From the NCBI GenBank assembly GCA_000143165.1, contig CP002084.1, positions 1,426,001-1,490,000 of the forward strand: a stretch of DNA of 64,000 nt, read 5' to 3'. The notes beneath the pieces are model-generated. The model did not search any database. It saw only the letters and a program-made list of their open reading frames with translations, and was not told the origin of the DNA. Origin of the DNA: Dehalogenimonas lykanthroporepellens BL-DC-9. GTDB taxonomy: Bacteria > Chloroflexota > Dehalococcoidia > Dehalococcoidales > Dehalococcoidaceae. Below, in pieces: positions 24,368 through 43,994 of this stretch (the stretch's first letter is position 1; every line of letters starts with the position of its first letter). Made by a program: the position numbers and the translations under genes.

Positions 24368-24396
24368 TTGACCGTAACGATATATGCGAGTATATT
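24368..24396 (+). promoter_or_regulatory. Promoter of candidate structured RNA
   Basis: TTGACC (24368-24373), a 17-bp spacer and TATATT (24391-24396) point right, away from trmD. No ribosome binding site or rightward gene follows. A 7-bp hairpin begins at 24401, about where the transcript would start. Confidence 0.6.
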
Positions 24397-24400
24397 GAAA

Positions 24401-24715
24401 TTGCGGGCGATAACCCGCAAAATAATAATCTAGCGAAGGGAGGAATGGATGGTAAAGAGGCAAGCCGTTCTGGGAATGTGGCTCTTTCCTTACAAATGCT
24501 CCTCGCTGGGAGGTTGGGCATCCTAGATAGCGACGCGGCGAGGAGCCAGGGCGAAGGCTCTTGAGCTTTTTGTAAATCGGGTGAAAACCGTCTGGTCTCG
24601 TGACCAGGACTGGAAAAGTAAAGAGCGAAGCAGACCACATTCAAGGGTACCAACGTAACAGAATAAGAACCAACCGGACGGGCGCCATAGCGGACTAGCT
24701 AAGCGCCCGTCCTGA
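24401..24715 (+). ncRNA. Candidate structured non-coding RNA of about 315 nt, unassigned
   Basis: The region has a promoter, no rightward coding frame and several strong hairpins: TTGCGGG/CCCGCAA (24401-24420), a 9-bp helix GCTCCTCGC/GCGAGGAGC (24498-24506 with 24538-24546), CTGGTC/GACCAG closing a TCGT loop (about 24590-24605), and a terminator-like end. It overlaps the tail of the convergent SAM-hydrolase gene. I looked for the conserved bases of RNase P RNA, SRP RNA, tmRNA and 6S RNA and did not find them. It could be a divergent member of a known family or a new one. Confidence 0.5.
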
Positions 24716-24718
24716 CTT
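24676..24718 (+). terminator. Terminator-like hairpin at the end of the candidate RNA
   Basis: GGACGGGCGC (24676-24685) pairs with GCGCCCGTCC (24703-24712). A second inner pairing TAGC/GCTA is followed by a short T run (24716-24719). It overlaps the stop codon of the gene on the opposite strand. Confidence 0.6.
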
Positions 24719-25514
24719 TTATCTCGTCGCCGATACGCGCCCCGGTGATGGCGGCGGCACTGCCGTTGTTGAGAGCAATTTCCAGGTAACCGGTGGAGCC
24801 GATCAGGGTCAGCAATCCTTGACCGGCCACATAGTTGCGATTGAGCCCGATGACAGTGTGCCCGCCGATATTTATCCGGACATTATCGTTCGGCAAATCG
24901 TGGCGGCGAATATCGGTGATGATATTTCCGAAGCTGTCGACATGGATGACATGGCCGGTAAGCCCGTCCGGGGCGGCAGACGGCCGGGGCATCGGAATGG
25001 CTTGCAGGCTTTCAGCCTTTTCCCCAAAGGTTTCCGGCTGAAAACCCTGTGACAGCAGGGCGGTTACCGGCGCCATGATATCCCGTCCGTGGAAGGTATC
25101 GGAAACAGGTTCACGAAAGAATCGCCGGTTAGTAACGCTGATTACACTGGCTTCTCTGGTCAGACTGACCGAATCGTTCCGGATATTCTCTCCATTGACA
25201 TAGTCCCTGAAGGCATAAGACAGAACCCCGTTATCCGGACCGACGAAAGTTCCTTTAGGGGTGCGGACGATGATGATACGCCGGTCGGTGCCCACCCCGG
25301 GGTCTACCACGACCAGGTGGACGGTACCGGTTGGAAAACAGGAATAGACGGCACCCAGGACAAAGGCGGCCTGGTGAATGTTCTGCGGCTGGATTTGATG
25401 GCTGATATCGACGATGGTCGCTCCCGGATTGATGCCCAGAATGACACCTTTGACGGAGGCAACATAGCCGTCGGCAGTTCCGAAGTCGGTTGTCAGGGTG
25501 ATGACGGAATTCAT
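24699..25514 (-). CDS. SAM hydroxide adenosyltransferase (DUF62, chlorinase/fluorinase superfamily)
   Basis: This 271-residue protein starts VITLTTDFGTADGYVASVKG and contains VVVDPGVGTDRR, FVGPDNGVLS and FFREPVSDTFHGRDIMAP, all hallmarks of DUF62. Most family members split S-adenosylmethionine with water to adenosine and methionine. The Asp-Arg-His set used for this seems present (FHGRD). Only a few relatives are true halogenases, which carry an insertion that I do not see. It lies third after gatB and secG, 30 bp downstream of secG. Confidence 0.88.
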   Translation of the reverse strand: MNSVITLTTDFGTADGYVASVKGVILGINPGATIVDISHQIQPQNIHQAAFVLGAVYSCFPTGTVHLVVVDPGVGTDRRIIIVRTPKGTFVGPDNGVLSYAFRDYVNGENIRNDSVSLTREASVISVTNRRFFREPVSDTFHGRDIMAPVTALLSQGFQPETFGEKAESLQAIPMPRPSAAPDGLTGHVIHVDSFGNIITDIRRHDLPNDNVRINIGGHTVIGLNRNYVAGQGLLTLIGSTGYLEIALNNGSAAAITGARIGDEIKVRTGA

Positions 25515-28492: not shown

Positions 28493-28845
28493 GGGGACGC
28501 GTGGTTTCGACAGGGGAGGTTAGTTACGGAATTGCAGGTTGAGCTTGTCGCTAAGCTCATTAATCCTGGCGGCAAAAAACAATTGGCGAACGTGAACTCG
28601 TTCTCGCTGGCTAAAAACAGCTAGCGCATCCGCCGCGCCCCACCCCGACGGGCGTGAAGCGGGTGCCGACAGTCGGGGTGCCGCAAACCGGACGCTGATA
28701 AGGGATGCGAAAGAAATATCAGCTGGCCTGGAGAGATTCCGCCGGTTGAAGCTCGAAGGGCGAGAACAAAAAGCCGGCTAAACCTGTAGTAGATTCCGGA
28801 CAGTCTTCCTTGGACGGGGAGTTCGACTCTCCCCCGTCTCCACCA
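28493..28845 (+). ncRNA. ssrA: tmRNA (ssrA), tag GERELVLAG
   Basis: This is a 353-nt transfer-messenger RNA. The 5' GGGGACG pairs with CGTCTCC near the 3' end, followed by A and encoded CCA (28843-28845). The canonical GTGGTTTCGACAGG is at the 5' side and GGAGTTCGACTCTCCC forms the T-arm. The resume codon GGC is at 28585. The tag GERELVLAG ends at TAA 28612-28614. I recall this tag from Dehalococcoides, which supports placement in Dehalococcoidia. SmpB is encoded immediately upstream. Confidence 0.96.
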
Positions 28846-43888: not shown

Positions 43889-43899
43889 ACGCCTCTAGT

Positions 43900-43994
43900 G
43901 GAGGCGGATAGGCTCTGGTGGGTCTCGCGGTCTTCAAAACCGTTGGCGGCGGCGCAAACCGTCGCGGGGGGTTCGATTCCCTCCCCCTCCGCCA
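43900..43994 (+). tRNA. selC: tRNA-Sec (anticodon UCA)
   Basis: This 95-nt RNA has the extra-long acceptor/variable arms of tRNA-Sec. The acceptor 5' side is GGAGGCGG, the anticodon loop is CTTCAAA (UCA), the long variable arm lies around GGCGGCGGCGCAAACCGTCG, the T-arm is GGGGGTTCGATTCCC, the discriminator is G and CCA is encoded (43992-43994). The acceptor has a C-C mismatch at pair 6 (GGAGGCGG against CCCCCTCC). It decodes UGA with SelB. Confidence 0.93.

Follow-up and report, generated by a model that had tools for sequence, protein, structure and literature searches.

A predicted freestanding RNA gene of Dehalococcoidia in which a conserved small open reading frame is joined to a conserved RNA fold

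The window, the whole stretch of 64,000 nucleotides analysed here, comprises positions 1426001-1490000 of the complete 1,686,510-bp genome of Dehalogenimonas lykanthroporepellens BL-DC-9. Between trmD, its left neighbour on the opposite strand, and a convergent gene for a SAM hydroxide adenosyltransferase (24699-25514, minus strand), it contains a short segment that an initial annotation had read as the gene of a structured RNA, equipped with a promoter and a terminator and placed outside the common RNA families. This raises the question of whether the locus gives rise to a plain noncoding RNA or to something else. The analysis upheld the transcription signals, the structure and the lack of a known family, but the transcript would also encode a conserved micropeptide, whose open reading frame (ORF) is tied to one of the helices, P1. 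The elements on which this view is based are the following:

24403-24720 (approximate), plus strand: the RNA gene as a whole, with promoter, several helices and terminator, as read from the sequence
24368-24396, plus strand: sigma70-type promoter TTGACC-17-TATATT, recurring in homologues
24401-24420, plus strand: 5' hairpin TTGCGGG-CGATAA-CCCGCAA, at the predicted transcript start
24436-24443, plus strand: Shine-Dalgarno sequence AAGGGAGG, with GGAGG kept class-wide
24449-24526, plus strand: small ORF of 25 amino acids with the stop codon TAG at 24524-24526; conserved peptide, coding-type substitutions
24485-24490, plus strand: codons TTT CCT for the Phe-Pro pair of WxFP; P1 follows after 7 nt, a spacing found in homologues
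24498-24546, plus strand: hairpin P1, GCTCCTCGC (24498-24506) with GCGAGGAGC (24538-24546), with the stop codon in its loop; identified by covariation and stop position
24557-24626, plus strand: helix P2 (24557-24571 with 24613-24626), with an internal loop GA/A beside an invariant G.U; identified by covariation
24578-24590, plus strand: helix P3, enclosed by P2, weak here
24592-24607, plus strand: helix P4, enclosed by P2, 90% paired
24676-24722, plus strand: intrinsic terminator, a hairpin (24676-24712) with a T-rich tail, as read from the sequence

The promoter can be read directly (TTGACC at 24368-24373, TATATT at 24391-24396, spacer 17) and would set the start of transcription near 24403. 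Among homologues, at least 10 of the 12 consensus letters are present in 56% of the copies, compared with 2.8% of shuffled sequence, and the distance from promoter to start codon is alike, mostly 40-55 nt; a hairpin of altered sequence also occurs at the position of the 5' hairpin, as judged by visual inspection rather than by a statistical count. The terminator arms, GGACGGGCGC (24676-24685) and GCGCCCGTCC (24703-24712), are followed by TGACTTTTAT, and a terminator-like hairpin with a T run lies downstream of most homologues. As the initial annotation had claimed, the terminator runs into the 3' end of the convergent adenosyltransferase gene, and its further claim of several helices agrees with the folding of the RNA strand, which surpassed 100 of 100 dinucleotide shuffles (z = -3.21), as well as with the retention of helices in homologues. 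By its sequence, the locus would thus yield a short, freestanding transcript between a promoter and a terminator of its own. The statement that no rightward gene is present was right in that nothing beyond small ORFs was found, but overlooked the one inside the RNA that is preceded by a Shine-Dalgarno sequence.

No known RNA family accounts for this transcript. At gathering thresholds, Rfam returned only a tmRNA and three tRNAs, all elsewhere in the window, and a permissive scan of the region yielded chance-level matches only, with 6S and SRP absent up to E = 10. Covariance models of 6S RNA (RF00013) and SRP RNA (RF00169, RF01854) had no match at the locus or anywhere in the genome, although most control genomes were positive for small SRP; the SRP domain IV motif was absent from the window and, genome-wide, a search for it stayed at background level. 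Neither RNase P RNA (RF00010) nor tmRNA (RF00023) matched at the locus; the RNase P RNA of this genome lies elsewhere, and its tmRNA is a separate gene at 28493-28845. The predicted tag of this tmRNA is long and lacks the usual ALAA-type tail, and ARAGORN may have misplaced its frame. Searches of plasmids and phages gave no match to the RNA, and the literature searched described no small regulatory RNA of this kind in Dehalococcoidia.

In homologues, by contrast with the absence of conservation that the initial annotation had named, next to a strong Rfam hit, as an outcome that would speak against its proposal, the RNA is strongly conserved. By DNA search, the region was recovered from all 7 remaining genomes of the genus, plus a single genome from another family. 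Within the order, the core covariance model R1 had matches in 42 of the 156 genomes, three of which belong to the sister genus, and its E-values were mostly 1e-15 or lower (best outside the genus 2e-31; six weaker ones from 4e-11 to 0.007). A model of the P2 domain, R2, in which the P4 register is one column off from the corrected P4 alignment, added about 29 further genomes of the class; this count leaves out L107, a match in an ordinary-looking coding region without P1 or a Shine-Dalgarno sequence, which we took to be false. Among 400 genomes of the phylum, R2 had no match outside the class, and an exact pattern searched across 84,980 species genomes retrieved 10 records, all of Dehalococcoidia or Chloroflexota. 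On these comparisons we regard this as a real, so far unnamed RNA gene that is found only in Dehalococcoidia. Its distribution within the order is patchy: 19 near-complete genomes had no match even with laxer filters, in a search that carried no internal positive control, indicating that the gene is not essential.

The RNA gene is usually present in a single copy. Tandem duplicates, each with its own promoter and terminator, occur at L037:173-359 and 557-738, and at L030:1501-1684 and 1885-2067; the second tandem copy is devoid of the FP motif (peptide ..LLCRWDEDSKGSSLV..), its FP segment being replaced by DEDS. In three loci of family f36 (L052, L053, L054), P2-P4 are kept, P1 is missing and the ORF is very short or lacking, so that in these versions, as their sequences read, nature has separated the RNA part from the peptide.

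The initial annotation had proposed to look for homologues between trmD and a DUF62 gene; they do exist, but also outside this intergenic setting. Upstream of the RNA we find, depending on the lineage, genes that we take to be trmD, pheA, selD or glyS, and downstream presumably a SAM hydroxide adenosyltransferase-secG-gatB cluster, a radical SAM gene or a gene of the metallo-beta-lactamase fold; two of these names were checked with Pfam. As the upstream neighbour is usually divergent and the downstream neighbour usually convergent, and as both change between lineages, the RNA appears to be a gene of its own, rather than a leader. A selenocysteine tRNA gene is located in the window at 43899-43993, and selD (and selA) lie near the RNA gene in several relatives. 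This proximity had brought up a selenocysteine insertion (SECIS) element as a candidate, which we rejected, since any of TAG, TAA and TGA serves as the stop codon of the ORF. In several relatives, a CRP-like palindrome, TGxGA-N6-TCACA, precedes the RNA in place of a good -35 box; such palindromes (TGTGACCAAAGTCACA, TGAGACAAAAGTCACA and similar ones) were found in L046, L050, L051, L082 and L103, about 190-320 nt upstream of the P2 end, which suggests control of the RNA by a regulator of the Crp/Fnr family in these relatives.

Nearly all P1-bearing copies possess an ORF of 18-43 codons, mostly 20-27, whose start codon lies 4-10 nt downstream of a GGAGG-like sequence; in a few copies, mainly tandem paralogues, this gap is 13-14 nt. 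Across the class, the peptides share a motif of roughly QALLCRWxFPxxxSSL, further examples being MEKLQALLCTWFFPCIGSSLVGVRGS (genome G010) and MTRREAWLCRWMFPYRSSLAT (from another family of the class). For the ten codons that end in FP, a stretch in which the true frame is without any stop, 31% of the differing codon pairs are synonymous, compared with 4% and 16% in the other frames. Since the selection of ORFs had partly been guided by the FP motif, the analysis was repeated without the FP codons on a set dereplicated to 32 sequences. Here, 23% of the differing pairs were synonymous, compared with 11% for shuffled column order, a value reached in 3 of 1000 shuffles, and the BLOSUM score was likewise higher than for the shuffles, 7 of 1000 of which reached it. 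Judged by its codons, the ORF is under coding-type constraint, and its translation is predicted. The Phe and Pro codons themselves vary in the third base (TTT 48, TTC 7; CCT 38, CCC 15, CCG 2, CCA 1), indicating that the FP motif is held at the peptide level. Apart from a sub-threshold match to a Tap leader peptide, the peptide is absent from Pfam and NCBIfam. A frameshift at the FP codons was also considered: the stops of the +1 and -1 frames are scattered, whereas those of frame 0 are uniform in position, leaving such a product unsupported.

The collection of homologues also served the covariation analysis, which had been proposed as a check on the structure and came out strongly positive. 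Among 34 distinct P2 sequences, 99.3% of the cells hold standard pairs, and 9 of the 13 pairs show two-sided compensatory changes; P2 and P4 together have a covariation score of 0.453, while shuffles give 0.263 and slid registers at most 0.20. P3 is present as well; the alignment covered P2 and P4. Every sequence has an A and a G.U pair beside GUA in the P2 internal loop, an arrangement that may be a motif of the bulged-G (loop E) type. The 3' domain is conserved in sequence too, with invariant AAGG, AGC, GUA and CGA positions. The outer nine pairs of P1 are 95% paired, compared with 82% after random redistribution of the 3' arms over the sequences. P1 begins exactly 7 nt past the Pro codon of the FP motif in 49 of 54 copies, two more counting as 5 by choice of register, and the stop codon, although it may be TAG, TAA or TGA, falls inside the P1 loop in 52 of 54. 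In its predicted form, the ORF is geometrically locked to the RNA fold. Two further pairings were rejected. A pairing between the 3' arm of P1 and the 5' strand of P2 is feasible but does not covary (0.911 observed, 0.897 re-dealt), so that a defined two-state switch between P1 and P2 is unsupported. CTCCTCGC could pair with the Shine-Dalgarno region in the window, yet its covarying partner is P1 (in L021, CCCC with GGGG).

The predicted transcript of about 310 nt thus carries a conserved mini-protein of 25 amino acids and a strongly conserved folded RNA, and that a freestanding RNA gene with constraint on both peptide and fold exists here is, from the comparisons above, highly probable. The combination makes it probable that we are dealing with a two-in-one regulatory RNA, rather than with a plain noncoding one. 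One might nevertheless suppose that the RNA is purely noncoding and its ORF an accident of conserved RNA sequence; the SSL codons are indeed constrained by P1, and the UUUCC of the FP codons could, as seen by eye, pair in many copies with a GGAAG where P2 begins. Yet there is a surplus of synonymous and conservative changes outside the helices, the Shine-Dalgarno sequence and the start are conserved, the stop stays in the loop whichever of the three codons is used, and family f51 keeps the FP codons after loss of GGAAG, their only likely RNA partner, making this explanation improbable. The converse, a plain mRNA of a functional micropeptide in which P1 and P2-P4 form a 3' untranslated region that shields the message or adjusts its translation, with no role in trans, deserves more credit, though we still consider it unlikely. 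It would explain the codon-level constraint as well as the dedicated promoter, Shine-Dalgarno sequence and terminator; the 3' domain, however, is conserved in sequence as well as in structure and persists in L052-L054, where the ORF consists of a few codons or has been lost, indicating that this domain is kept for more than the peptide.

A Shine-Dalgarno sequence, a short ORF, a hairpin at fixed distance and a terminator are also the layout of a leader-peptide attenuator that acts on a downstream gene by transcription or translation. As no co-directional gene follows here or in most relatives, whose downstream neighbours are diverse and for the most part convergent, we think this highly improbable. 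Hardly better is the case for a chromosomal type I toxin message with the small peptide as the toxin: a folded message for a short peptide of partly hydrophobic character would fit, but the gene is usually single-copy and kept across the whole class, and the peptide, at about 25 amino acids, has no clear membrane-spanning segment. The least credible proposal is that this is the unrecognised 6S or SRP RNA of the genome. None of these models matches anywhere in the genome, which would leave room for it; against it stand the absence of both families from the permissive scan and of the domain IV motif from the window, the constrained ORF, and the failure to find the candidate in 19 near-complete relatives, which is hardly possible for an SRP RNA.

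We therefore favor a regulatory RNA of dual function in which folding and translation are coupled, with a probability of roughly 0.55. That P2-P4 are conserved hints that the RNA, apart from its peptide, has a regulatory effect on proteins or other transcripts. Tandem paralogues with DEDS in place of FP, f36 relatives that keep P2 with a tiny ORF or none, and the 19 genomes of the order without the gene count against this reading. Sequence comparison provides the freestanding gene, promoter, Shine-Dalgarno sequence, coding constraint, 7-nt geometry, stop in the loop and P1/P2; from these we infer a ribosome pause, an unmasking of the 3' arm of P1 and an action in trans. A ribosome would load at the strong Shine-Dalgarno sequence and translate up to WxFP. 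When the Pro codon occupies the ribosomal P site, P1 would have its base at about +11, at the mRNA entry of the ribosome, so that a pause would be expected there, and such a pause may be the simplest reason for the fixed distance between the Pro codon and P1. Moving on, the ribosome would open P1 and terminate inside the former P1 loop, releasing the purine-rich 3' arm (GCGAGGAG), while the stable P2-P4 domain would bind a protein or target RNA in trans. In this specific form, a new translation-gated class of regulatory RNAs confined to Dehalococcoidia, in which a WxFP pause 7 nt before a stop-bearing hairpin sets the fold and which acts in trans instead of on a downstream gene, the idea is speculative.

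TnaC, SecM and the Erm leaders, regulatory leader peptides that act by nascent-chain arrest, resemble the present case in their short ORF, a Trp/Pro-containing motif and a hairpin at a set distance downstream; they differ in that no controlled gene follows here, the peptide is unrelated, and the pause is a prediction from geometry. Dual-function small RNAs are exemplified by the CRP-controlled VcdRP of Vibrio cholerae, which encodes 29 amino acids (PMC8672173), and by SR1/SR1P of Bacillus subtilis (PMC8501984). As predicted here from the sequence, both unite a small peptide and an RNA part on one short freestanding transcript, and the control of VcdRP by CRP is paralleled by the CRP-like palindrome upstream of some homologues of our RNA. 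There is, however, no known homology to either; the conserved RNA part is a covarying multi-helix domain here and an open base-pairing stretch there, P1 is fixed 7 nt from the Pro codon with the stop in its loop, and no gene for Hfq turned up in this genome. One Dehalococcoides-type peptide weakly matched Tap, the RepA leader peptide of IncFII plasmids (PF08048, TIGR03475; E 0.0005-0.002), which we treat as chance, the match being below curated cut-offs, limited to one of five peptides and without a replication gene. The rdhA motif (PMC11109978), a weak riboswitch candidate of Dehalococcoides, is likewise a candidate structured RNA of these organisms, but it directly precedes reductive dehalogenase genes, whereas the RNA described here is freestanding.

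Dehalococcoidia are important in the clean-up of chlorinated solvents, and the RNA is open to direct tests, since Dehalogenimonas- and Dehalococcoides-like genomes, which belong to groups that have been brought into culture in part, carry it. A fixed distance between codon and hairpin, in a transcript with no downstream gene to control, raises the question of whether translation can gate a trans-acting RNA.
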